Shown: positions 14,628 through 28,920 of the stretch, piece by piece
How the letters are laid out: every line of letters starts with the position of its first letter
How positions within the stretch are numbered: the stretch's first letter is position 1
Virus record (IMG/VR): IMGVR_UViG_3300044993_000766
Span: 1 to 58,017 of that record
Reading direction: 5' to 3' (one strand)
Origin: a virus
DNA length: 58,017 nt
The notes under the pieces: model-generated
Seen by the model: only the letters and a program-made list of their open reading frames with translations
Told to the model about the DNA's origin: nothing
Database searches by the model: none
Position numbers and translations under genes: made by a program

Positions 14628-14753
14628 GTTTTGCGCCCGCAAGATATAGCGTCTCCGGGGCTGTAGGACGGTAGCACCACCACACGTAGCGCAATGTGCG
14701 CATGCCACAGTCCGCCATCCAGTTCCCGTTACTGTCTGCGTTGGGTCATTCAC
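14622..14753 (-). CDS. Small Cys-rich peptide (43 aa) coupled to the giant gene
   Basis: GTG at 14753 opens 5 nt before the TGA of the giant gene ends (GTGAATGA), with AAGAAGG 9 nt upstream. The peptide begins VNDPTQTVTGTGWRTV and carries CAHCATCGG (CxxCxxC) plus a C-terminal Cys after a basic segment, suggesting a small zinc- or thiol-binding knuckle. The length, overlap and Shine-Dalgarno sequence are typical of small phage genes. No family recognised. Only its first few codons overlap the giant gene. Confidence 0.45.
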   Translation of the reverse strand: MNDPTQTVTGTGWRTVACAHCATCGGATVLQPRRRYILRAQNC

Positions 14754-17700
14754 CGCCAACACCTTCTTCTTCAGCAATTCGCTGCCGCAGTGCCGCATCG
14801 TAGGCAACACCGTTTTCGGCCCGTTTGCTGTATGCCTCACGCGCGCGCAGCGAGCGGCGGATGGTCTGCCCAGTGATGGGCTTTTCGGGGTACGCCTTGT
14901 TGAAGGCCAGTATCTTCCGGCGCACTTCGAGTGCCGCGTCCTGATCGTCCATACGCAGCGCCATGGCATAGGCCGCCAACAGCGCCTTGCGACGGTCGAG
15001 AATGTGTCGCTCGCGGTCCTTGAGTGCGCGATTCACGGCGTACTGCCGCGCCACTTCGGCCGGCGTGAAGCCGATGGCCTGCAAGAATTCATCCTTGAAG
15101 TCGGTATCGGTCACGAGGTCGCCGCGCGTGGAGGTGACGCCTTCTTCGGCATAGCGCAGCGCCTTCATCGCATCCTTGAGCGCCTTGGGCAACATGGTCT
15201 CCACACCGCGATAGACCTGACCTTCGGCAATCAACTGCGTGCCGACAAAGAAGTTTTTTGCGATGCCGAACATCGGCCCCGCCACGTTGTCCATCATGGC
15301 GTAGTAGGCATCGCGGCCGTCCAGTTCGCGATCGGCATCGCGCCACAGCAGTTGCGACATTTCCACGCGGCTGGCGATGTCGGCGCCCGTCAGTGTGTTC
15401 GCTGCACCGTTCATTGCGACTTCCGCGCCAGCTTCACCCAGAAACTGCGCGAGGAATTTGCGGATTTCGGCCTCGGTATCCCACGGGTCGTCCTCATCGC
15501 CGAATGCATGCGCGATAGCGTCGATCACGCCGATGGACAGCGACGCCATCGGCAGGCCCATCGCGCCGGAGAAAAAACCACTCATGACCAGCACACCAGC
15601 AAGATTGCGCCGCGCCAGCCGGCGCACTTCGGGGCTGTCGCCTCGGGTCGCCTTCCAGCCCATACGGCCCAGGTGCCAAAGCATGTTCAGACCGTACTGC
15701 TTGAACATCAGCACGATCTTCGCTGGCCCCGATTGCAGGTAGCGTGCGCGGTTAGCGTTGCTGTAGTTGAAGTGGGTCGCGGTAATGGTGTCGGCCGCAA
15801 AACGCACGGCGGCATCGAATGATTGCCCCGCGTCGCGCGCAAGGCGATAGGCCGCCATGCCGGACGCTTCGCGGTTCAGCACTTCTGCGGTGTGAAACAG
15901 CCAGCCGATGAGTTCCATCGCGCGCGCCAGCTTGGGGTTGTAGGTGGCAAGACCGCCCTCGGCCAGCCCCATCAGCGCGTGGGTCTGCGTCTTGTCGAGC
16001 ACACCGGCCTGCTGCAAAGCGGCGTGGGCTTTGACCTCATCCGGGCGCTTGAGCACCTTCTGCGCATGTCCGGCCGTGCGCGCCGAGTCGTTCATGGCGC
16101 GCATGAGGTGGCGCATGGCGTTCGCCGGGCCGAATTGCGACGCCAACTGCGGGAAGGTCAGGACGGCGGTCTGAGTGAGGTTGACCAGCGCCGCCGCTGG
16201 CGTCACACCCAGGAAGTAGACAAAGCCGATCGAGGACAGACGGTTGGTCATCGCGCTGTCCTGCGGATTCAGCACCCACTGGTGACGCTGATCCAGCTCG
16301 CCGAGGATGGCGTCCATCGCGACGACAGCACGGGTGTCGGTGTCCGGCTCGCGCCTGCGAATATCCTGCGCCTCACGCAGATCCGCCAAGGTGCGCTCCA
16401 GCACATGCCCATACCGCAGCCGCGCGAGCTGATGCGCGCCATGTGCCATGTTGTGAGCGAAGGCGCGCAGCGCATCAGGATCGAAGCCGGCGACGCCTTG
16501 CCGGTGGATCGCATGCTTGCGCATCGACAACTCCGGCAGCGTTTGCAGGTAGGTTTGATAGATCGCGTCCTGCGTTTTCTCCGACACACCGGCTTTACGC
16601 AGTTGTTCGATCACGTCGGCGACGAACGAGCCGCTGGGCGCGTCCTTGGCTTGCGCGCCGCGCAGCCGACCGCGAGCCTTGACCGCGAATCCGCGCGCCT
16701 TGAACGCCGCTTCCCTGCGCTCAAGCGCGGCCGGACTGTCGAGCATGAGAAACACCGGCTCGCCGTCGCGCTCGGCCGCTATGAAGTATTCGCCGTATCG
16801 CTGCAAGGGGAAGTAGACGCCCTGAAGGCGATGGGTCTCGAACTGCTGTCGAATCGAAAACACCAGCTTGCGCTTGAGGCCGTCCGGCGCCTCGCTGGCT
16901 TCGATGCGCTGAGCGAGCGCGTCTTCGACTTGCTGGGAGCGGTCGCGGTACAGGTTACGCATCTGCCGGTAGAAGCCCTGCGCCTCCGGCGACAATGCCT
17001 GCCACTGCGCGCGAAGCGTCGGGTAGATGCGCTTTCGGGATTCCTCGCGCCCCGGCATGCCGCGCAAGCGGCGGGCTTCTTCCATCATGTCGATCTTGTT
17101 GTCGGCGCTGCGCCCGAGCATCTGCTCGCGCAGGGCTTTGAGCGCCTCGCGGATATTCTTGCGATTAGCATCGTGCAACTGCCCGCCATAGCGGAATTGC
17201 AGCACCTGGTACGCCTCGGCCGGATCGACGCCTTCGAGCGTCGCCCGGTGCATCAGATCGAACAAACGCTTGGCCTCGGCCTTGTGGCGTCCGGCCCAGC
17301 GGCGGACGCTCTCGGCGAGGTCCGCACCCTCCTCCAGCAGTGCGTTACGGTCGGCCGACATGGCGTCGAGCTGGCGGGAGAATCCGGCGATGGCCGGGTC
17401 GTAGTCGCTGCCCAGTTCGGTCAGGTGGTTGGTGGCCAGTGCGCCCAGCCAGACGCTGCGGCTGGCGTCCTTGAGTTTGGCCGGGGTGCTGTCGCGCAGC
17501 CACTGTCGCACGCGATCAAGCCGGCTTGCGTCTTCATCCTGCCGCACTACGGCGTCCACGTCGGCCAGAAAACCCTCCGGCGCACGCCGGCTGAACATCG
17601 GCAACCCCTCCGCGACGGCGGTCCGCATGGCGGGTGTGATGTCGAGGGCGTGAACGTCCAGTGGAGGCGACCGGAAGCGCGGACGAATCTGTGCGGTCTT

Positions 17701-20700
17701 CGCCTGCCCACCCAACGGACGCGCCCACCGGTTGACCACCGCAGGCAGGATGCCGTCGTAGTAGCCGCCCATGCCGGCATCGCCCAGGTGGAGCGAGAGC
17801 GCATCCAGACGCCGCAGAGGCGTGCCACGCGAGCTGCCGCGCGGGGATAGGTCGCCCTCGCCCGCGCGGACGCGCGCGGCCACCTTGGCACCCAGCAGCG
17901 AGGACAGCAGGTTCGCCGGCACCTCCATTTCCCGCACCACGTCGCCCTGCTTCAAGCCAGCGACGCGGAACGCGCCCGAAGGCATGGGCATATAGTCGAT
18001 GGCATCGACCTGTTCGCCCCGCGAATAGCGCGAGGTCTGCTGCGCGCCGGTCGTCCAGCCGATGCGCTGGAAGCCACGTTCGGCCGCCATCCGCACCATG
18101 CGTTTGATCGCAAGCAACGTCCAGTCTTCGGTGGACTTGAAAGGCGCGTCAGGTGCGACGTTGCGATCGGCGCTTGGACGATACCCGTAGCGCCGGCCGT
18201 GCTGGTGCCAATCGGACTGGATCTCCTCAATGAACAGCATGCGCTTGCCGTCCACGTCCTCGCGCTCGTTGTAGCGGATGTGGACAAGGACATTCTTTAC
18301 AGAGGGGTAGTGTTCGCTATGGAAAGGTTCGTCGGGGTTGCGGCTCGATGGCTGCACCGGAAAAGTCAGGAGCAGTTCGCGGTACTCGCGCCCGCCTTCC
18401 ATCTGGTAGCTCGCGTATCGGCCTTCCGCAGAAACGAATGGCGCAGTTGTTTCTATGCCCGCCGAAAGGGTTTCAAGATCGTGCCTCTGCGATTCGGTCA
18501 GTGTGCGCTCATCGACTTCCTGGCCGTCACGCATGAGAGCAACGCCATACGACGGAAGCGTTTCGATCTCGAACCCCGCTGCCTGCAATCGATCCAGCGC
18601 CGCGTCGTAGCGGGCGACATCTCCGCCGATTTGCTGTTCGCCGATCCGCACCTGATGGGTGCGCACGAAGTCGGTCAGCGCCTCGCGTGTGATCCGCGCT
18701 TCTCCGGTTACGCTTTCCCGTGTAGTCAGCCAAACATCGACATCGAGCCAGTCGCGTTCCGCCTGCTTGAATCCACCGCGCCGCTGTACGCCATCCAGCC
18801 ATTGTTGCCACTGCTCAGCGGTTCCCCGCCGCGGTGCGCCTTGGGCGCGCTCCAGCGCCTGCAACAATGCCGAGCGAAAGCCCTCCACGCGCGAAAACGC
18901 TGGTGCCATCGACTCTTTGAGTGACAAGGCACGCTCGCTGCCGCCCAGCCGAACCTGCCTCGCGGCACGCATGACCAACTGACGAAGCTCAGCCTCCGAG
19001 AGCGTCCAGCGCACGCCGAGCTTGCGCAGGAACGCGCGCACGGCCGCGACGACACGATCAAGCACGGAATCCTTCACACCTCTCTCGGCCAGAATCGCGA
19101 TGAACTCGGCAATGGCCGTACTGTCCCAGCCGTTATCCAGGTAGCCACGCCGCGCGTGCTCGGCGAACAGGTCGCGATAGCGCCCCTTCTCTCGCAGACG
19201 ATGGACGCCTTCGGCGATCTGCGCCCACTGCGCCGGCCCGACGATGGTTTCGATGCCGTAGTGACCGATGGCCTCGTGGATCAGCACACGCTGGACGGCA
19301 CGCCGGTTCGGCAGCGCACTGGCCACCAGATAAACAGTGCCCGTGCTGCGCGCGTAATAGCCTTCGGCGAGGTGAACATCCGGCGCGCGCCGCGCTGAAG
19401 CCGGCAGATAGTCTGGGGTTGCGACGACACGCACCACGGGCGCCCCCTTCCAGTCCACCAGCATCTCGTCCACGACCCGCTGCACCTGGGCAACGCTCGC
19501 GCCAGCAGCGGCTGGGTTGCGGCGTTTGCTGAAAGCTCCGGCGTCATCGTCCCGCTGCTGCTGGTAGTCCAGCAGCTCGTCCAGCGCATCGCTGAACCCA
19601 GCCTCGCGCAGCGCCGAGCGCTGCGCCTCCAGCGCCGCATCGAGCATAGGCCGCTCATGCTCGGGAATCTCCGGCCCGCGCACCAGCAACAGCCGCTGCA
19701 CGCGACGATACTGCTCGCGTGCCTCGCGCAACGCCTGTGTCTGCTCGAAAGGCTTGGCGGCTTCGGCCCTGAAGCGTTCGGCCTCGCCTCGGGCGTTCTC
19801 AATACGGGCTTCGGTATCTACGATTTCCGCGCCGATCCGGTCGATATAGTTGTTCAGCCGAGTCAGCAGGCCGGTGGCCGAAAAGGTCTGCGCACCACGC
19901 TCGTAGCTCGTGACCTCGCCCAGATCGGACGACACGCGCACCCATTGGGCATGCACACGATCAATCTCGAAGGTCACGCCGCGATAGGCGAGTTCCACCG
20001 GACTTGCTGCGTCGCTCGGACCGATCAGCGCGCCAACGCGCCGGGCAATAGTCTGAGTCAGCGCCTTGCGCTCCCCGAACCGGGCACCGTCCAGCGTAGT
20101 ACCGCCGGGCACCGCCTCCTTGTCCTCGGGCAAGGGGTGTTGCTTGACTTGGGCTTGCACCTCGCGCAATGCCTTCAGGTAACGCGGGCCACCCATCGCG
20201 GCGTACTGCTCGGCCGTGCGCGCCTGCCGTTGCAGGGCCGTCTGGTTATCGGCGTGCGCCAACTCCAACTGTTCCAGTCGGCGCACGTCATGGCGCAACT
20301 GGGTCTCGCGCAGGATCAGCGGGTCTCCCGACGCGGCGGCCTTCATTTCGGCTGCATTCGCCGCCTCGCCGTCGATGTCCTCGATTTCGGTCTGTTGGCC
20401 GTCGTATTTGCGCAACTGCTCGATGCCGCGCGCCTTGTGTTCCAATAATTGCCAGCGCCGGGTGTCGTAGGTCTGGCGGGTCGCGTAGCGATAGATCGCC
20501 ACCTCAAACCCGTCCGGGTCGCGCTCGTAGAGCTGGTTGCCGCGTCGGATCGCTCGGCCTTCGCGCTGTTCCAGATCGCTCGGCTTCCACGGGGCATCGA
20601 TGTGGTGCAGGCCGACGATGCGATCCTGCACGTTGGTGCCGGCTCCCATCTTTGCGGTCGAACCGAACAGGAACCGCACCTCGCCGCTTTTGACGCGCTT

Positions 20701-23700
20701 GAACAGCTTGTCCTTGGCGTCGGGGTGCGGGTAATCGTGGATGAAGGCGATTTCGTTCGCGGGCACGCCGCCGGCGATGAGCTTGGCGCGCAGATCGTCG
20801 TAGACGTTGAATCCTTCCGCGCCGCTCAGGCCCACGATGTCCTGCAAACTGAGGCTGTCGCCGGCCTCGGCATCGAACCCATTGGCGTCGTTGTAGTCGT
20901 CGATTTCGGCTTGGCTCAGTTCCTGCCCGGCTTCGCGCTCGGCCTCACGTTCGGCGATCCAGCGTTCGCGACGGGCGGGATCGCGCAGGGTCTCCTGCGC
21001 CCAGGCCAGACCCTTGTCACGGCCGCCGGGCAAGATGCGTCGCGCGCGACCGGTCGCCGCGTCGTAGACGGTCGTCGTCGCCCTGGCCGCGGCACCGCGC
21101 ACCACCAGCAGAAACGGCAGTTCCTCCGCGCCCGCGACCGTGTGCGCCGTGCCGCTCGCATGCGCCAGACTGCCATCGTCCTCGCGCACGTAGACGCGCT
21201 GCGGCTTGGTCGCGGCGCTGCGTCGAGCCGTATTGGGCACCGACAAGTCGCAGAACACCAACTGCGTGCCCTTGTCGGCATCCCATTGCCGATACAGCGC
21301 CAGCATGCGCTCCAGCGCCAGATTGATCTTCGAGCCGCGGAAGTCCGGCGCCGCCGGGTCGATCAGCCGATAGTCCAGTCCTGCCTTGTTGGCCTGCCCG
21401 GTCAGGGAGAGCGCATTGACCCGGCCCTTGGTCTGCCGGGTCAACTCGCGGATGCGGGCGAAGCGGCCCAGGATCGACTCCGGGTTGAGGTCGATCTTGG
21501 GAGTCAGGGCCGCTTCCACGATGCCCATCTGGGCGTCCTCGCGCGTCGGATAGACCGCCAGGGCGCGCGGGTAGGCTTCGCCGGGCACCTCGATCTTGAC
21601 CCGGAAGCGGCCGTCTTCGGCCTCCTCGATCGTCGCCGTTTCGCCGCGCCCAGGATTGAAACCGAACACCACGCCGCCGCCCTCACTGCGCGCCAGATGC
21701 GGGACACCCATGAACTCGGCCACCTGTGGCGAGCGTTCGGCCACCACGATCTGCGGGCGGCCACCCAGCAGGTTCGGAACCGGGAAGCGCCCGCCCTTGG
21801 CCGCTTCCTGGGCCTTGAGGTCGTCCAGCGTCACCACGTCCGCGAACGCGCGGTAGTCGGCCATCAGTGACGGCAGGTTCTGGAACTTCGCAAAGCGGGT
21901 CGAAGCACGGAAGCCGGCGCCGGAGGGCGCGACCTCGTACACGTTCTCGATGCTGCCGTACTGCCGCGCCCAGGCATCGAAGACGTGCAAGTCCTTGCGC
22001 TTGAGCGTCGGGTATTGCATGTACCGCTGGAGGTTGAACATTTCGACCAGCGAATTGCTGACCGGCGTACCCGTGGCTGTCACCAGCGGCGCCTTGTCGC
22101 CCAGCGTCCCGAACAGCCACTGCGTCTTGACGAACAGATCGAACGCGCGATCGGAGCCGTTCGGATTGCCCATGCCGGGCACGCGCGACATCGCCGTGGT
22201 GTAAAACAGGTTCTTGAATTCATGAAGTTCATCGACGAACAGGGCATCGACGCCCAACTCGTCGAAGGTCAGCACGCCGTCGCGTTGGCCGATGTTCGCC
22301 AGCTTCTGCTTGACCTTGGCCTCCAAGCGTGCGCGGATGCCCTCCATGTCGCGCACGATGCCGCGGTCGCCGCGCTCGCGCTTCATCTGTTCGATGAGGC
22401 TGGCGATCTCGTCGATCTGTTCGGTCAGGATGCGGGTCTCGGTCTCGGCCGGCAGCCCGATCTTCTTCAGCGAGGAATGGCCGACGATGATCGCGTCCCA
22501 ATCGCCGGTCACGATGCGGGAAAACAGCTTCTTGCGGTTCTCCCGCGTGAAATCGTCCGGTTCCGCCGCCAGCACCACGGCCCCCGGATACAGCCGGGCG
22601 AATTCGGTGCGCCACTGCACGGTCAGATGATTGGGCACGGCGAACAGCGGCTTGCGCGCGACACCGAGCCGTCGCATTTCCATCGCGATCGCGACCATCT
22701 GGAAGGTCTTGCCGGCACCGACGACATGATCGAGCAGCAGTTGACGCGATTGCAGGCCACGCCACACCCCGTTCTGCTGGTGCGCGAGCAGGGTCAGGCC
22801 GGGACTCATGCCCGGCAGGGTCAGATGACTGCCGTCGTAGCGCCGCTCGACGGTGCGGTTCATCTTGTCGTTGTAGAGCGCAAGCAGGCGCTCGGCCCGC
22901 TCGGGGTCGCGCCAAACCCAGGCCCGCCATTCGGCCCGCAGCGCGTTCTGTTTCTCGCGGGCGCGTTCGGTTTCGGCTTCCAGCACAATGCGTTCGATCT
23001 TGCCGTCGCCATGTTTGATCGTCTTGGTCACGACCACCGCGCGCCCGGCGAGGGTCGCCTGGAAAATCTCGGTCGCGCCCATCTCCTTCGTGCCCCAGGT
23101 CGAGGCATTCAGTACCCGATCCGGTTCGCCGACGACGTTCACCAGCCACAGGCCCGACCCGCGCACATAGGTCATGCGCGCGTTCGCGCCCGTCACCTCC
23201 CGATGGAAAGCTTGCAGATCCTCTGCCGGCAGGAACGGAGCGCCGAGCGCGATGGTGATCTCGCTGGGCGTCTTGTCGCGCGGAATGACCTTGGACAACG
23301 CCCCGACGTTGCGGGCGAAGCGCGGATCGCGCCGGGCCGCGTCCTTGGCTTCGACGAGCTTGGTTTTCACATCGCCCGACAGGTAGTCGTCGGCCGTGAC
23401 CAGATTGCCGTCCGGCGTTTCGTACACCAGCGGGCCGAGTTCCTTGACGAGCGCGGTACTGTCCTTGCCGTAGACCTCGGTCATGTAGTCCAGGTCCAGA
23501 CGGCCACGGTAGTTCAGGCTGGCGAGGTAGGCGTCGCGCGCACTGTGGACGGTCACGAAATCCGACGGCGGGAACAGCACGCGACGACGGAAGATATCGG
23601 CTTTCGTCGCCTTCGGGGCGCGCGGCTCGATGCCCTCGCGCTTGGCGACGGTCTCGCTCACGCCGGCGTCGTAGTCGAACTCCAGTGCCAGAAGCAGGCT

Positions 23701-26700
23701 GGCGTCCGGGTCGTCGAAGAACAGGCTACGGTTGGTCCGCGATGCGCTGAGGTGGCCGTATCGCTTGAGGAAGGCGTCATAGCGATCGTTGAGCAGACGA
23801 CGGTTGGCCTCGATCTGCGCCTCGCTCGCGTCCGCGGCGCGTTCCAGGCGCATCTGCTGGCGCAGCACGTCGCGAATCTCGATCATGCCGCGCATGCGCG
23901 CCTCGGCGGTCGCACCGGGCGCCGTCCACGGCGCCGCTTGCGGCTCGCCCATCCGGTCCTCGCCCCGGATCATGATCCGCCCCTCGGCGTCGATGAAGTA
24001 GGCGCCGACCTTCACCCCCTCGGGCACCGCACTGGCGGTCATCGCCTCGGTGCGGTCGATCGGGCTGTAGATGCCCTCCGGCAACGTCCGCGCCCATGCC
24101 GTCAGTTGCGCGGCCAGATCGCCGGAAGGGGCGACGGTGTAGTCGTTGGCCCGGTACATGGTGCCGCCGGCCGTCTGCGTGCCGAGGATATGATCCGGGT
24201 GATCGACGTACCAGGGGTTGATGCGGAAGGAGAACGTCTCGCCCGTGGTCGGGTGTTCTAGCGTCTGTTCGACGGTCTGCACCCAGCGCAGGCGCGCGGC
24301 CCGCGTGTCGTCGCTCGGCGGGTCGGTGTCCGGGGCGCGCTTCTGGAGCACGATGATATCGGTCACGACCTCGGTGCCGGCGTTCTCGGCGAACGCGGTG
24401 TCGGGCAGGCGCGCGGCGGCGATCAGATCCGCCCGCTCCGCGATCCACTGCCGCACGCGACTGTCTTTGGCGTCCAGAAACTGACGCGACACCACCATCA
24501 TCAGCACGCCGCCCGGCCGTAGCTTGTCGATCGACTTGGCGAAGAAGTAGTTGTGGATGCTGAAGCCCGAATACGGGCTGCGCTCAGAATCGACGATGGG
24601 TTCGCTACCGAAGGGCGGATTGCCGATCGCCACGTCGAAAAATTCGCTCGGGACCGCCACGTCCTGAAACCCGCTCTGGCGAATGTGCGCTTTCGGATAG
24701 AGCGCGGCGGCGATTTGCTGGGTCAGCGGATCGAGTTCGACGCCGTAGAGCGTGGAAGCGTTCCGCAGCTTCGCCGGCATCCCGCCGAAGAAATGGCCAA
24801 TGCCGACCGCCGGTTCCAGAATGCGCCCGCGGGTGACGCCCAGACGCACCAGTGCGGAGTACATGCCGTCGATCACGGGCTTGCTGGTGTAGTGGGCGTT
24901 GAGCGTGGACGCGCGCGCCGCGCGCCATTCGGCATCCGTCAGCAGGCCCTGAAGCTCGGCGCGGACTTTCGCCCATTGGGCATTGGCCGGATCGAAGACG
25001 CCCTTCAGCGCACCCCAACCGACGTAGCGCGCGAGTTGGCGACGCTCTTCCGGCGACGCCGGCCGCTGTTCGGCGGCCATCGCCTTGACGATGCGGATCG
25101 CAGCGAGATTGTCCCGCGCCTTGCGCGCGAGCCCGCCTTTGCCCAGATCGTCGGCCAAGCCCTCGACGGCCTGCTCGGCTGTATCCACTTCCGTCGCGGT
25201 GGCGGCGACAACGCCGGCCTCTGGCCCCGCGGCAGGCTCGGCCTGCGGCGACGCGGTCTCGGCCACAACGGAAGAGGCCGCAGGATCGTCGATCGCTGCG
25301 GCCTCTTGGGTCAGGCGCTCTCGCTGCCCGGTTCGGGCGGAGGGGGATCGTCGTCGTCGGTCGTTGGTGGCTCCAGCGACAACTCCCACACCTGCGCCTT
25401 CTCCCAGCTCGACAGATGATTCAGGCTCGTATCGGCCTTCGCCCGTTCCTCCTCGGCGGTCTGGTTCGCCAGCGCCTCCAGGTAGTATCCCGACCGGATC
25501 AGTTTCTGCACCCGCTTGGGCCAACCCAGCATCCAGCGGTTCGCGACCTCGCGCGCGGTCGGCGACATCGCCAGCAGTTTCGCGCGCACGTCGGGGGGAT
25601 AAAGTTTCGGTTTGACCAGTTCCTGCATCGGTGGTGTCCTCCGGGTTGGCCTCGTCCGATCGCGCAGCTCGCGCTTGTGGGAAGGTCGTAGTGTCAGTTT
25701 GCGTCGAAGCGCCGCCAGACGGAAGCGGCTCGGACGCGCGCGAGGGGCTCGCTGCGATCTGAATATCCGCCCACAGGCGGTTGGTGCTGCTGGAGAAGGT
25801 GACGATGCCACCATCCACTGCATAGCGCGCGCCGAACCGACCACCGCTGTTGACCGCGCCAGCCCGCTCGAACGCCGAGCGAAGCGCACCCAGCGCGTTT
25901 TCCACCTCGGTGACGTGGCTGAAGGTTGCCGGAAACGCCACCCGCCCCGGCTGACCGGAACGTACCTGAGCCACTAGATCGTCCACGAATGCGGCCAGGA
26001 TCGTGTCGTTGCCGCTTGGCGAAGGCGCGTCGCGCATCGCCCGCGATGCGTCCAATGGCGTCACCGCGTCGCGCCTCTCCATCGCGACAGGTGCTTCCTC
26101 TATGCCCGCAGCGCGGGCCGCCGAGGCTTCGATCTGCGGCTCGATCTTCGTCCATCGCTCCGACCACGGCACCTCACGGCGCTGCTCGATTTTGCCCTTA
26201 TGACTGACGGTGATCGTGGTATTGGGGTCCAAGCGCACCCAAGGGAAACCGGATTTCTCGTAGAGAGTGCCGCGCGCAGTCTCGGAGGTGCCCAGCAGTA
26301 GCGACATGGAGGTCGCCTGTACCCGATCGCCGATCGCGAGGCCCGCAGCAGCTAGCGCCTGCATCCGGCGTCCACGATGCCCGTCATTGGAGGCGTCGGC
26401 CAGTCGTTTGAGAATCGGAAATAGTCGGCCGTACTCTTGGGTCGCACGGTATCGTTTCAAACCGCCAAAGGCCCGCGCACGCTTCTCCTGCCACTGCCGC
26501 GCATCTGCATAGCTGGCGAAATCGGGGAAGGTTTCCACAGGCGCACGCTGTTCCGCCTCGCGCCGGGCGCGACGTTCGGCGTCGCGGGCCAGTTCTGTCG
26601 CGCGATCTGTGCCAGCCCAGCGAAAGATCGCGTCCTCCGTCGCGCCGCGTCCACGCGGCAGCCGGATACCGGTCGCCGCAGTGAACACTGCGCGACTGGC

Positions 26701-28920
26701 CGGATTCGCCTTCGCATCGCCCAGGTTGCGCGCGACCAAGCCACGCCCATTGCGGCGCTCGATCAAGTCGATCAGCTCATCTGCACTGCGGACGTAGAAC
26801 GCGCTATCCGGGTCGGTCACGTTCGGGAATTTCCGGCGCATGGTGTCGAGGAACACCGAATGTAACTCCGCGCGGTCCAGCGCCTCGACGGAACGAGGCG
26901 CATCGGGAGTTTCGTCATTGATTGCGCCTTCGGCCGTGGCGGCTGTGGTCACATCCGGTGGCGACACGGTGCCAGCCTCGCCAGCCCGTATTGCGCGCAG
27001 GGCTGCCGCCTCGGTATCGATGGCGTCAAGCTGTACCGCTGCCTGACGCGCTTGCGCAATCTGCGCCAGCATGCGCATATTGGCAACCTGCTCGGCAGGA
27101 TCGACCATGCCGGGCGCACGGTCCTTAGTCGCCTGCGCCTTCCGCTGCTCCCGTACACGGTCGATCAACGGATTCATCCGTGCGGCAGGCAGGCCTGGGT
27201 AACGAGTTTCGACGAAACGTCGCACGTCCCCGCGCGTCGGGCGCGGCTCGGCCTTCCAGTCGTTGAGGAAAGCGTGAATCGCAGCCATTACCGCCTCCGG
27301 CTCGGGCGGCGGAGTCAGGACTTCTCCGGTTTCTGGGTCGATGCCTTCCGGCACGGCCGCAGAGACAGGCGGGATCTGCGATGTTGCGCGCGAACTGGGT
27401 GTGGCCCCAACAGCAACATCCGTGCGCAGCGCGTGATCGCGTGCAGCCGCGCGTACATCCGGGCTCTGCCCGGTCGCCTCCAGGTTCCGTGCCAGTCGCA
27501 AGTCGGCCGCACGTTGTGCGTTCTGCTGCGAAGGCGTCGAGGCCACGCCCTCTGGCGTCACCAGAACCGGCGCACGCGGATCAACCGTGCCGAAACCCGG
27601 CTGGCCATCAGGGGCAGGCAACGCGAGCGGAGCAGGCGGCACCTCTGGTATCGGCCGGTTCGGAATGCCGCCCAATGCGCCATACACGCCACCGCCGATC
27701 GCGCCCGCCGCGAAGCTGTCCAGGTACTCCGTCAGCGCCTCGCCATCGGTCAGCGACTGCGCCGCACCAAAGCGCTGCGCGGCCTGCTGGACCGCTTCGG
27801 TCGTGCCCTCGGTCAGCGCATTCTTGCCGAATGCCGTGGTCATCCTCCGCGCGAGTCCACCCGTGCCGCCGACACCTTTCAGCAACGTATCGGCCAACAC
27901 CTTGTCGCCGAAGGTCTCCGCCGCCCCGTAAATCGCACCGCCCGCCAGCACGCGCGCGAGGTCGATTTCCCCGCCGGTCTCTTGCGTTTCGCCGTAAGCC
28001 GCGTTGTAAGTGTCGCCGAACCCGCGAGCCGTCGCGCCTGCCGCCAGCGCGGTCACGCTGCCGATCTCCCGCTGCAACGTGCGAGTCAGGAATTGCTGCC
28101 CCAGTGCCGCCGCTTCGCGTTTTGCGATGTCTTCCGCCGTGCCGGCGGCGATGCGCTTCGCCGCGTGTTCGGCGACCAGCGCCGCGGTGCGTTCACGCAG
28201 TTCCTTCTTGATCGCGGTCTTGCCGAGCAGGCCCGCAATCGCGCCTGTGATGTTGCCGAGGACCGGCACCTCTGAACCTGCCGCCGCACCGGCAGCAGCC
28301 GTGATGAGCGATTCGACGACGCTCGGCAGCATCTGACCCACATTGTACTGTGCCCAGTCGAACAAGTTACCGGTGGTGTCCAGCACACCTTCGCCGCTGC
28401 CCCACGCGCTGCTGAGGCTGTCGGTCGGGCGGGCTGTCGCGCCTATTTCCCGATTGAGCGCCTGGGCGCGCTCCGCCCAGCCGTGCGCGGTGTCATCGGC
28501 CCCAAACAGATCGGCAGCCAGCGCCCCAAGACCGTAGACCGAGGCTTTTGTGCCGGGCCAGTAACTTTTCACGCCGCGCACGAAATCGCCGTCATCGCTG
28601 GCCGTCACATGCGAAGGCGAAGGGTCTGGATTGCTCGCTCGAAACGCCGCTTCCATTTGTGCCAGATCGGTACCTGTCAAGCGCGCAACTTCCGGCAGTG
28701 CGAGCGTCACGTACTCGTTGCGGATTGCACGCTGCCGTTCCGGTGGCGCGGTGTCGTAGCCAGTGCGCGCCCGCACCTTGCCCCAGTGATACTTGTCGAT
28801 CACCTCAGGGGTGAAGGTCGGCGCCTGCGGCTTGTTCGCGCCATAGGCGATGTTCATCCAGTCGGGCACCGCCGGATTCCAGGTGCGCGGCGCGAGTGGG
28901 TTGTAGGGATCGGTCGCCAT
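14746..28920 (-). CDS. Giant phage polyvalent protein: DNA methylase, SNF2-type helicase, metallopeptidase and LPD domains
   Basis: 4724 residues, one intact frame. In order: a Gly/Ala-rich hydrophobic segment (about 197-235, membrane-penetration-like); low-complexity linkers; an N6-adenine methylase (ILEPAVGIGHFFG near 1369, catalytic NPPF at 1434-1437); an SNF2/DEAD-like helicase (VGAGKT ending at 2072, DELH at 2230-2233, TATGTPVSNS, and QREGRAIRRGNQ near 2785); a zinc-peptidase-like HEAIGHYG at 3215; an EIQSDWHQ-containing polyvalent domain near 3567; a long helical region; and an LPD38-like membrane-interacting C-terminal region from about 4230. Such proteins are packaged and injected to protect or remodel incoming DNA; Bcep22-type podoviruses carry one of about 4600 residues. 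ATG 28920 overlaps the transglycosylase stop (TAATG). A 105-codon gene lies inside it in another frame at 25311-25628. Confidence 0.93.
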   Translation of the reverse strand: MATDPYNPLAPRTWNPAVPDWMNIAYGANKPQAPTFTPEVIDKYHWGKVRARTGYDTAPPERQRAIRNEYVTLALPEVARLTGTDLAQMEAAFRASNPDPSPSHVTASDDGDFVRGVKSYWPGTKASVYGLGALAADLFGADDTAHGWAERAQALNREIGATARPTDSLSSAWGSGEGVLDTTGNLFDWAQYNVGQMLPSVVESLITAAAGAAAGSEVPVLGNITGAIAGLLGKTAIKKELRERTAALVAEHAAKRIAAGTAEDIAKREAAALGQQFLTRTLQREIGSVTALAAGATARGFGDTYNAAYGETQETGGEIDLARVLAGGAIYGAAETFGDKVLADTLLKGVGGTGGLARRMTTAFGKNALTEGTTEAVQQAAQRFGAAQSLTDGEALTEYLDSFAAGAIGGGVYGALGGIPNRPIPEVPPAPLALPAPDGQPGFGTVDPRAPVLVTPEGVASTPSQQNAQRAADLRLARNLEATGQSPDVRAAARDHALRTDVAVGATPSSRATSQIPPVSAAVPEGIDPETGEVLTPPPEPEAVMAAIHAFLNDWKAEPRPTRGDVRRFVETRYPGLPAARMNPLIDRVREQRKAQATKDRAPGMVDPAEQVANMRMLAQIAQARQAAVQLDAIDTEAAALRAIRAGEAGTVSPPDVTTAATAEGAINDETPDAPRSVEALDRAELHSVFLDTMRRKFPNVTDPDSAFYVRSADELIDLIERRNGRGLVARNLGDAKANPASRAVFTAATGIRLPRGRGATEDAIFRWAGTDRATELARDAERRARREAEQRAPVETFPDFASYADARQWQEKRARAFGGLKRYRATQEYGRLFPILKRLADASNDGHRGRRMQALAAAGLAIGDRVQATSMSLLLGTSETARGTLYEKSGFPWVRLDPNTTITVSHKGKIEQRREVPWSERWTKIEPQIEASAARAAGIEEAPVAMERRDAVTPLDASRAMRDAPSPSGNDTILAAFVDDLVAQVRSGQPGRVAFPATFSHVTEVENALGALRSAFERAGAVNSGGRFGARYAVDGGIVTFSSSTNRLWADIQIAASPSRASEPLPSGGASTQTDTTTFPQARAARSDEANPEDTTDAGTGQTETLSPRRARETAGDVADRARGREPLDAGLAQAGAETDPVGILPGGAGEPDRRGGTGEGRYEPESSVELGEGAGVGVVAGATNDRRRRSPSARTGQRERLTQEAAAIDDPAASSVVAETASPQAEPAAGPEAGVVAATATEVDTAEQAVEGLADDLGKGGLARKARDNLAAIRIVKAMAAEQRPASPEERRQLARYVGWGALKGVFDPANAQWAKVRAELQGLLTDAEWRAARASTLNAHYTSKPVIDGMYSALVRLGVTRGRILEPAVGIGHFFGGMPAKLRNASTLYGVELDPLTQQIAAALYPKAHIRQSGFQDVAVPSEFFDVAIGNPPFGSEPIVDSERSPYSGFSIHNYFFAKSIDKLRPGGVLMMVVSRQFLDAKDSRVRQWIAERADLIAAARLPDTAFAENAGTEVVTDIIVLQKRAPDTDPPSDDTRAARLRWVQTVEQTLEHPTTGETFSFRINPWYVDHPDHILGTQTAGGTMYRANDYTVAPSGDLAAQLTAWARTLPEGIYSPIDRTEAMTASAVPEGVKVGAYFIDAEGRIMIRGEDRMGEPQAAPWTAPGATAEARMRGMIEIRDVLRQQMRLERAADASEAQIEANRRLLNDRYDAFLKRYGHLSASRTNRSLFFDDPDASLLLALEFDYDAGVSETVAKREGIEPRAPKATKADIFRRRVLFPPSDFVTVHSARDAYLASLNYRGRLDLDYMTEVYGKDSTALVKELGPLVYETPDGNLVTADDYLSGDVKTKLVEAKDAARRDPRFARNVGALSKVIPRDKTPSEITIALGAPFLPAEDLQAFHREVTGANARMTYVRGSGLWLVNVVGEPDRVLNASTWGTKEMGATEIFQATLAGRAVVVTKTIKHGDGKIERIVLEAETERAREKQNALRAEWRAWVWRDPERAERLLALYNDKMNRTVERRYDGSHLTLPGMSPGLTLLAHQQNGVWRGLQSRQLLLDHVVGAGKTFQMVAIAMEMRRLGVARKPLFAVPNHLTVQWRTEFARLYPGAVVLAAEPDDFTRENRKKLFSRIVTGDWDAIIVGHSSLKKIGLPAETETRILTEQIDEIASLIEQMKRERGDRGIVRDMEGIRARLEAKVKQKLANIGQRDGVLTFDELGVDALFVDELHEFKNLFYTTAMSRVPGMGNPNGSDRAFDLFVKTQWLFGTLGDKAPLVTATGTPVSNSLVEMFNLQRYMQYPTLKRKDLHVFDAWARQYGSIENVYEVAPSGAGFRASTRFAKFQNLPSLMADYRAFADVVTLDDLKAQEAAKGGRFPVPNLLGGRPQIVVAERSPQVAEFMGVPHLARSEGGGVVFGFNPGRGETATIEEAEDGRFRVKIEVPGEAYPRALAVYPTREDAQMGIVEAALTPKIDLNPESILGRFARIRELTRQTKGRVNALSLTGQANKAGLDYRLIDPAAPDFRGSKINLALERMLALYRQWDADKGTQLVFCDLSVPNTARRSAATKPQRVYVREDDGSLAHASGTAHTVAGAEELPFLLVVRGAAARATTTVYDAATGRARRILPGGRDKGLAWAQETLRDPARRERWIAEREAEREAGQELSQAEIDDYNDANGFDAEAGDSLSLQDIVGLSGAEGFNVYDDLRAKLIAGGVPANEIAFIHDYPHPDAKDKLFKRVKSGEVRFLFGSTAKMGAGTNVQDRIVGLHHIDAPWKPSDLEQREGRAIRRGNQLYERDPDGFEVAIYRYATRQTYDTRRWQLLEHKARGIEQLRKYDGQQTEIEDIDGEAANAAEMKAAASGDPLILRETQLRHDVRRLEQLELAHADNQTALQRQARTAEQYAAMGGPRYLKALREVQAQVKQHPLPEDKEAVPGGTTLDGARFGERKALTQTIARRVGALIGPSDAASPVELAYRGVTFEIDRVHAQWVRVSSDLGEVTSYERGAQTFSATGLLTRLNNYIDRIGAEIVDTEARIENARGEAERFRAEAAKPFEQTQALREAREQYRRVQRLLLVRGPEIPEHERPMLDAALEAQRSALREAGFSDALDELLDYQQQRDDDAGAFSKRRNPAAAGASVAQVQRVVDEMLVDWKGAPVVRVVATPDYLPASARRAPDVHLAEGYYARSTGTVYLVASALPNRRAVQRVLIHEAIGHYGIETIVGPAQWAQIAEGVHRLREKGRYRDLFAEHARRGYLDNGWDSTAIAEFIAILAERGVKDSVLDRVVAAVRAFLRKLGVRWTLSEAELRQLVMRAARQVRLGGSERALSLKESMAPAFSRVEGFRSALLQALERAQGAPRRGTAEQWQQWLDGVQRRGGFKQAERDWLDVDVWLTTRESVTGEARITREALTDFVRTHQVRIGEQQIGGDVARYDAALDRLQAAGFEIETLPSYGVALMRDGQEVDERTLTESQRHDLETLSAGIETTAPFVSAEGRYASYQMEGGREYRELLLTFPVQPSSRNPDEPFHSEHYPSVKNVLVHIRYNEREDVDGKRMLFIEEIQSDWHQHGRRYGYRPSADRNVAPDAPFKSTEDWTLLAIKRMVRMAAERGFQRIGWTTGAQQTSRYSRGEQVDAIDYMPMPSGAFRVAGLKQGDVVREMEVPANLLSSLLGAKVAARVRAGEGDLSPRGSSRGTPLRRLDALSLHLGDAGMGGYYDGILPAVVNRWARPLGGQAKTAQIRPRFRSPPLDVHALDITPAMRTAVAEGLPMFSRRAPEGFLADVDAVVRQDEDASRLDRVRQWLRDSTPAKLKDASRSVWLGALATNHLTELGSDYDPAIAGFSRQLDAMSADRNALLEEGADLAESVRRWAGRHKAEAKRLFDLMHRATLEGVDPAEAYQVLQFRYGGQLHDANRKNIREALKALREQMLGRSADNKIDMMEEARRLRGMPGREESRKRIYPTLRAQWQALSPEAQGFYRQMRNLYRDRSQQVEDALAQRIEASEAPDGLKRKLVFSIRQQFETHRLQGVYFPLQRYGEYFIAAERDGEPVFLMLDSPAALERREAAFKARGFAVKARGRLRGAQAKDAPSGSFVADVIEQLRKAGVSEKTQDAIYQTYLQTLPELSMRKHAIHRQGVAGFDPDALRAFAHNMAHGAHQLARLRYGHVLERTLADLREAQDIRRREPDTDTRAVVAMDAILGELDQRHQWVLNPQDSAMTNRLSSIGFVYFLGVTPAAALVNLTQTAVLTFPQLASQFGPANAMRHLMRAMNDSARTAGHAQKVLKRPDEVKAHAALQQAGVLDKTQTHALMGLAEGGLATYNPKLARAMELIGWLFHTAEVLNREASGMAAYRLARDAGQSFDAAVRFAADTITATHFNYSNANRARYLQSGPAKIVLMFKQYGLNMLWHLGRMGWKATRGDSPEVRRLARRNLAGVLVMSGFFSGAMGLPMASLSIGVIDAIAHAFGDEDDPWDTEAEIRKFLAQFLGEAGAEVAMNGAANTLTGADIASRVEMSQLLWRDADRELDGRDAYYAMMDNVAGPMFGIAKNFFVGTQLIAEGQVYRGVETMLPKALKDAMKALRYAEEGVTSTRGDLVTDTDFKDEFLQAIGFTPAEVARQYAVNRALKDRERHILDRRKALLAAYAMALRMDDQDAALEVRRKILAFNKAYPEKPITGQTIRRSLRAREAYSKRAENGVAYDAALRQRIAEEEGVGGE
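25311..25628 (-). CDS. Embedded gene (105 aa) in an alternative frame inside the giant ORF
   Basis: The frame begins MQELVKPKLYPPDVRAKLL at ATG 25628 with GGAGGA 7 nt upstream. The product has the composition of an ordinary helical protein: TAREVANRWMLGWPKRVQ, SGYYLEALANQTAEEERAK, SSWEKAQVWEL, then an acidic/Pro tail. Over the same bases the giant frame (about residues 1098-1204) encodes G/E/R/P-rich low complexity that looks like an out-of-frame translation. Small proteins of this LYPP...GWP type next to methylase/helicase genes of mobile elements seem familiar to me, but I cannot name the family. Two readings: a true overprinted gene, or an ancestral small gene whose DNA was absorbed as a linker when flanking genes fused. 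Confidence 0.65.
   Translation of the reverse strand: MQELVKPKLYPPDVRAKLLAMSPTAREVANRWMLGWPKRVQKLIRSGYYLEALANQTAEEERAKADTSLNHLSSWEKAQVWELSLEPPTTDDDDPPPPEPGSESA

Follow-up and report, generated by a model that had tools for sequence, protein, structure and literature searches.

Results

The nested open reading frame and its host gene

The window, that is, the whole stretch of DNA analysed, is an IMG/VR virus record of 58,017 nucleotides (IMGVR_UViG_3300044993_000766). Its minus strand carries a giant ORF for a DarB-like polyvalent protein, within which a much smaller frame is found. The features of the locus are as follows.

14746..28920, minus strand: giant ORF, 4724 aa, DarB-like polyvalent protein, host gene of the small frame
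25630..28920, minus strand: N-terminal half of the giant, variable among relatives (tblastn)
25637..25642, minus strand: Shine-Dalgarno sequence GGAGGA, 8 nt before the nested ATG
25311..25628, minus strand: candidate nested small gene (family 1), 105 aa, predicted all-helical, +1 frame of the giant ORF
24241..25158, minus strand: Eco57I-type adenine methylase region with an N-terminal GKGG-containing stretch (Pfam Eco57I, 2.3e-7; alignment)
20539..22752, minus strand: SF2/SNF2-type helicase module (Pfam Helicase_C, 4.9e-5; ResIII, 5.1e-4)
16807..17493, minus strand: LPD39, large polyvalent protein-associated domain (Pfam, 2.8e-26)

The Eco57I match of the giant scored 31.5 bits (cut-off 25.3), and its GNPPF motif agrees with NPP(Y/F), with G, N, P and F invariant in the methylase alignment. 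An SF2/SNF2 helicase is fused C-terminally to the methylase; Helicase_C scored 24.0 bits against a cut-off of 23.5, and the Pfam matches to ResIII and SNF2 stayed below theirs. A GKGG stretch was spotted by eye when we looked for LPD36 with its GXGU motif, but the LPD36 model had no match. The methylase and helicase parts are common to the phage relatives, and tblastn searches with the N-terminal pieces N1-N3 gave matches in the closest relatives of the window only. In three giants the N-terminal half gave matches to DdrB of phage P1 (1e-16 to 1e-20), which places the nested gene of these three at a DdrB-like/DarB-like joint. The virions of phage JC1 are reported to contain its DarB-like protein, which is annotated at 4515 aa (PMC9144972).

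The nested ORF starts with an ATG at 25628, ends with a TGA at 25311 and overlaps giant codons 1098-1203. The first-pass annotation had pointed out this 105-codon frame without giving its strand, and had placed a GGAGGA Shine-Dalgarno sequence 7 nt from the start; the frame and the motif are present, but the measured spacing is 8 nt. Its description of the giant frame over the same bases as rich in Gly, Glu, Arg and Pro was broadly right, Ala and Asp being abundant as well. The length of the nested ORF by itself is unremarkable, because 15 out-of-frame sense ORFs of at least 90 aa were found inside the giant, the longest of 306 aa. Over the overlap, codon preference was 0.56 in the small frame, -0.12 in the giant frame and -1.09 in the third frame; 318-nt true-frame windows of the giant, used as the reference, have a mean of 0.60 and a minimum of 0.05. 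The small frame has the codon preference typical of the genome, whereas the giant frame has no such preference over the overlap, and nowhere else in the giant does the +1 frame outscore the giant frame. Third-position GC over the overlap is 0.83 in the small frame versus 0.47 in the giant frame.

The other long out-of-frame ORFs of the giant were set aside, since most of them gain stops in relatives. Two of these, at 22232-23149 (306 aa) and 23780-24448 (223 aa), both on the minus strand, have gained stops in most relatives and look like chance products of GC-rich DNA; in this comparison the linker is poorly aligned and its own row also contains stops, which is evidence neither way.

Homologues and arrangements of the small gene

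Family-1 homologues were found in Pseudomonas phage 8P, two plasmids, 28 viral contigs and 35 bacterial-genome loci, so that the homologue search proposed by the first-pass annotation returned relatives in phages, prophages, plasmids and bacterial genomes. The 8P homologue (48.8% identity) lies within the 15.4-kb gene 8P_023, likewise in the +1 frame relative to the giant. The giant frame is free of stops across the small ORF in 28/28 viral family-1 loci, one of which (L014) is cut by the contig end.

Four arrangements were distinguished. In the phages and in the prophage-like loci L041, L043 and L045, the small gene is nested in a giant with about 270-1740 codons upstream. In the plasmids L008 and L009 and in Burkholderia (L069), what precedes the nested gene is a short N-terminal domain, 131-139 aa long. 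In Azoarcus (L062, L068), the methylase frame opens no more than about 26 codons away from the nested gene. Finally, free-standing copies with starts of their own occur in bacterial genomes, where the methylase is absent from the fetched flanking DNA. Stops have appeared in the former giant frame at 17 of the 20 free loci analysed, 26 in total versus 37.8 expected; this set was drawn from the 35 bacterial-genome loci and excludes L046, L049, L060, L065-L067 and L070-L072 (start unclear, context incomplete or arrangement different).

The short N-terminal domain of the second arrangement is 53-73% identical among the three loci. Between L009 and L069 its substitutions at giant-frame positions 1/2/3 number 23/19/69, and because they fall mostly at third positions, we regard the domain as coding. 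The starts annotated for the plasmid methylase genes are therefore too far downstream: in both plasmids they lie beyond the small gene, and the conserved N-terminal domain before them (L008, upstream of 15594; L009, upstream of 2241) is missing from the annotation. All three methylases (L008, L009, L069) start with MQLDLFGA, which we take to resemble a beta-clamp binding motif.

Several loci show variations on these arrangements. Small copies also occur in different host ORFs, namely a giant with ddrB-ParB and PBECR1 nuclease domains in L041 (828-12278), followed by little of the window-type methylase-helicase, and a KfrB ORF in L067. A tandem, diverged second copy of the small frame lies just upstream in the +1 frame in L002 (4704-4883), L003 (4704-4871) and L004 (4695-4868); none was seen in the window. 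The free copies L048 (1322-5803) and L050 (3641-5803) follow relaxase-like genes (AAA_30/TraI-like; Relaxase with LPD7) by about 200 nt. In Pseudomonas aestuarii (L072, 6001), the giant frame is open and the small frame is interrupted by stops.

A second family in other methylase giants

Family 1 is absent from eleven named phages whose methylase giants are related, but in every one of them the same linker contains a +1 ORF that starts with ATG and is at least about 100 aa long. Eight of these ORFs constitute family 2; with its profile, eight of the eleven phages gave good matches, L082 a weak one (2e-3), and JC1 and Y7 none, although both have +1 ORFs of their own. Among the best 80 of 402 viral loci by methylase-domain closeness, 77 contained a nested match to the family-1 or family-2 profile. 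Without exception these 77 nested ORFs use the +1 frame and lie in the linker, 218-923 nt ahead of the methylase match. The three misses comprised L124 and L136, with other protein-like +1 ORFs, and L155, without any. A protein-like nested ORF was absent in L155, L232, L233 (Streptococcus phage records), L235 and L236 (human faecal contigs); L234, a cyanophage record, has its own +1 ORF. Because the same contig had been fetched twice for several loci (e.g., L002, L010, L085), the start-codon and shuffling counts given below were made on unique sequences.

The family-2 profile retrieved 67 viral loci, of which 63 are nested and two are cut by the contig end; the exceptions are L173 and L192, the latter being the PBC5 copy. 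In the Sinorhizobium phage PBC5 (L079), the ORF for the N-terminal half continues in frame into the small ORF. This arrangement is due to a one-base difference from Atu_ph08, possibly a natural change or a sequencing error in an old record. No separate gene was annotated under the match in 21 phage records with family-2 matches, nor in 8P; in PBC5 the small ORF lies inside its orf33. In Pseudomonas phage Itty13 (L076), the annotated ORFs over the fetched stretch run on the strand opposite to the methylase giant, which is unannotated there. The family-2 search of plasmids gave no match. Neither did that of 3 genomes and 274 genomes of one class, too uninformative a sample to carry weight, nor a DNA-level search of E. 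coli genomes.

Family 2 is probably related to family 1, with a weak linkage in sequence. Alignment of the two families by hhalign gave a probability of 2.7% (E 0.017), rising to 18% (E 0.0013) with extended sets; one locus, L125, matched both profiles, and iterated hmmsearch at 1e-4 did not merge them.

Selection on the two frames and start signals

The 72 unique nested ORFs, a count that does not include L082 (E 2e-3), start with ATG in 71 cases and GTG in one, and contain no stop in the giant frame. A Shine-Dalgarno sequence of at least 4 nt precedes 68/72 of their starts, versus 1098/6177 (18%) of the other +1-phase ATGs.

For the stop test, synonymous codons were permuted within each small ORF in 51 representatives less than 70% identical to one another, L014 being left out of the shuffling. 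We observed 0 giant-frame stops where 52.1 were expected; the product of the single-locus probabilities of no stop is 10^-30.9, from a sample in which shared ancestry is reduced, not removed. Since free copies do gain stops, this result indicates that the giant frame is kept open by selection.

The codon-wise substitution analysis called for in the first-pass annotation was carried out on 15 pairs sharing no locus, 75-99.5% identical and with at least 6 substitutions each. Substitutions at small-frame positions 1/2/3 number 88/75/217, indicating purifying selection on the small frame. Over the overlap, amino-acid identity averages 0.91 for the small frame and 0.82 for the giant frame, against 0.95 for the methylase; in 14/15 pairs the small frame is the better conserved of the two. 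The synonymous difference is 0.139 in the small frame versus 0.235 in the methylase. Judged by the substitution pattern, the identities and the synonymous difference, the small frame is the main constraint and behaves as a normal gene, while the giant frame is open and mildly constrained, as a looser linker would be. A lack of homologues together with a relaxed small frame, which would have counted against the gene, was looked for; homologues and a constrained frame were found instead.

Predicted structure and possible function

The family-1 model contains helices at residues 23-35, 37-46, 49-65 and 74-80, and the family-2 model at 3-17, 19-28, 31-51 and 56-68, both with a mean pLDDT of 77. 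Both proteins are thus predicted to be helical bundles with the same helix order. No significant match to the family-1 fold was found in the PDB or BFVD, or to the family-2 fold in the PDB, and the small protein has no known family in Pfam, PHROGs, NCBIfam, PADLOC or PDB sequences. Each of three Pfam families had a match in a single member out of 35 (best 0.0023), and one further match reached 0.076; all were taken as chance. TnpV (PF14198) was matched weakly by 2/8 family-2 members (best 4.3e-4, 20.7 bits versus a cut-off of 27) and by no family-1 member, and was set aside. The P1 proteins Ulx, DdrA, Hdf and Hxr were rejected as homologues, showing no profile relationship to the nested protein.

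Our leading guess, a tentative one at somewhat less than even odds, is that the nested protein may be a partner for folding, packaging or ejection of the giant. It draws on two analogies, the JC1 giant found in virions and the small Dar proteins of P1, which in the sources consulted assist or accompany DarB (PMC9024508, PMC12810830). The likeness to these P1 proteins is positional only. The protein could instead be a stand-alone anti-defence or anti-restriction factor. We consider this less probable, yet still a serious candidate, given that free copies occur without the methylase and that L048 and L050 closely follow relaxase genes of mobile elements; against it stands the near-constant place beside one methylase-helicase module in 77/80 phage loci (best 80 of 402).

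Discussion

A probable gene within a gene, and its alternatives

We consider it probable, at roughly 80%, that the small frame functions as a nested gene, internally initiated from the mRNA of the DarB-like giant, and that the same bases serve as a loosely constrained linker of the giant. The support comes from sequence comparison: the small protein has homologues, its frame is under selection and its start site is conserved, the giant frame stays open, and phages share the position and frame of the nested ORF. The suggestion of the first-pass annotation that two proteins are encoded by one stretch is thereby strongly supported at this level, by the homologues, the selection on the small frame and the stop-free giant frame. 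Ribosomes would initiate internally on the giant's mRNA at the nested Shine-Dalgarno sequence and ATG, and so make a separate, helical protein of about 12 kDa. The giant frame would be translated across the same bases, giving a linker that would join the N-terminal half to the methylase-helicase half. The small protein might then help the giant to fold, to enter the head or to be ejected, in parallel with the small Dar proteins and DarB of P1. Observations that count against a nested gene are the loci without a protein-like nested ORF (L155, L232, L233, L235, L236), the broken small frame of L072 and the N-terminal half of PBC5, which lies in the small frame.

The PBC5 arrangement is what would be expected if the small sequence were the C-terminal tail of the N-terminal half, reached from the giant frame by programmed frameshifting. 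We regard this as rather improbable, because the Shine-Dalgarno sequence and ATG are conserved, a stop 5-122 codons upstream of the ATG closes the small frame in the nested family-1 loci, and free copies have their own starts; PBC5, moreover, is one base off its relative, possibly through a sequencing error. The poor codon preference and lower conservation of the giant frame over the overlap would also suit three separate genes (N-terminal half, small gene and methylase half), with the giant frame open at the joint only by chance. This is very unlikely, since 51 divergent loci contain 0 stops versus 52 expected, stops do accumulate in free copies, synonymous change is slower in the overlap, and JC1 virions were found to contain the DarB-like protein annotated at 4515 aa (PMC9144972). 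Least credible of all is a chance ORF in GC-rich DNA, conserved only through conservation of the giant frame. Other long out-of-frame ORFs do exist in the giant, but the codon-position pattern tracks the small frame and not the giant frame, and the free-standing homologues without a methylase in their fetched flanks already refute this reading.

Another alternative, unlikely but better placed than the preceding three, concerns the order of events. In classic overprinting, the small protein would have been born de novo in an older giant linker, and the free copies would be later escapees. The family-1 tree, built from 62 proteins over 95 columns and with many of its forks open, contains branches that fit this view: the free clade L038-L047 lies within nested phage copies (support 99/98), and the free L070 lies among nested plasmid copies. 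However, the genome-typical codon preference is shown by the small frame and not by the giant frame, conservation is also higher in the small frame, and small copies occur in different host ORFs (L041, L067).

Origin of the arrangement

Codon preference, conservation and the free copies lead us to infer that the small frame is older than the giant linker, the tree being unrooted. The giant frame would then have been overprinted across the older small frame when the two halves joined. The DdrB-like N-terminal half of three giants, set against the separate ddrB and darB genes of P1, fits, and does not prove, a fusion across a small gene lying between ddrB-like and darB-like genes. The first-pass annotation had offered the absorption of a separate gene during fusion, its frame left behind as a fossil. 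A gene-fusion origin is plausible in view of the free copies, the DdrB-like/DarB-like joint and the separate ddrB and darB genes of P1, whose darB has no comparable nested gene. The small frame, in contrast, is live and not decaying, and a single absorption event does not agree with the tree, which requires 9 changes between the nested and free states, at least 7 of them forced by well-supported branches. At least one such change looks like an escape from nesting, with the small frame alone kept, because the members of the clade L038-L047 lie inside nested copies and have stops in the former giant frame.

Implications

Whether the window exemplifies a general pattern is, in our estimate, an even bet: DarB-like phage giants would almost as a rule hold an unannotated +1 internal cistron at the joint, encoding a small helical partner that moves in and out of nesting, with a linker created by reading across it. 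If so, the giant gene of many tailed phages would be two genes, the second missing from the annotated phage records examined. The small protein would be a hidden element of the machinery for DNA protection and packaging in phages, and a new candidate for the list of their antirestriction and packaging components. Since a single small gene exists concurrently in nested, partly overlapping and free-standing form, it offers a clean natural test of fused-gene origin. The comparison also exposes an annotation error in plasmids, whose methylase genes were cut short.

Comparison with known systems

The host ORF shares an adenine methylase, an SNF2-type helicase and an LPD domain with the DarB-like MTase-SF2 "dyad" polyvalent proteins (Iyer et al. 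2017, PMC5512222); the main text of that paper does not use the word "overlapping", and the parts consulted describe no second frame. Our literature search, by title and abstract and with most subscription journals outside its reach, found no report of a nested gene in DarB-like giants. Nested phage genes (Rz/Rz1) and these giants are already known, and the new element, not found reported, is the conserved nested gene within them.

The Dar system of P1 (DarB, DdrB, DdrA, Ulx, DarA, Hdf) shares the DarB-like half and, in three giants, the DdrB-like N-terminal half, and the sources consulted describe small companion proteins packaged in the head (PMC9024508, PMC12810830). Unlike the present giants, P1 has separate genes, including ddrB and darB, and its small Dar proteins are unrelated to the nested protein by profile. 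The embedded spanin genes Rz/Rz1, as described for JC1 (PMC9144972), likewise place a complete phage gene inside another in a different frame, but their proteins are unrelated and function in lysis. TnpV (PF14198) is similar in being a small mobile-element protein with weak family-2 matches, and differs in that these fall below the curated cut-off. The overprinted viral genes described in PMC8227390 share the same-strand +1 internal overlap; in the present case, however, it is the long enclosing frame, and not the small one, that looks like the later arrival over the overlap.
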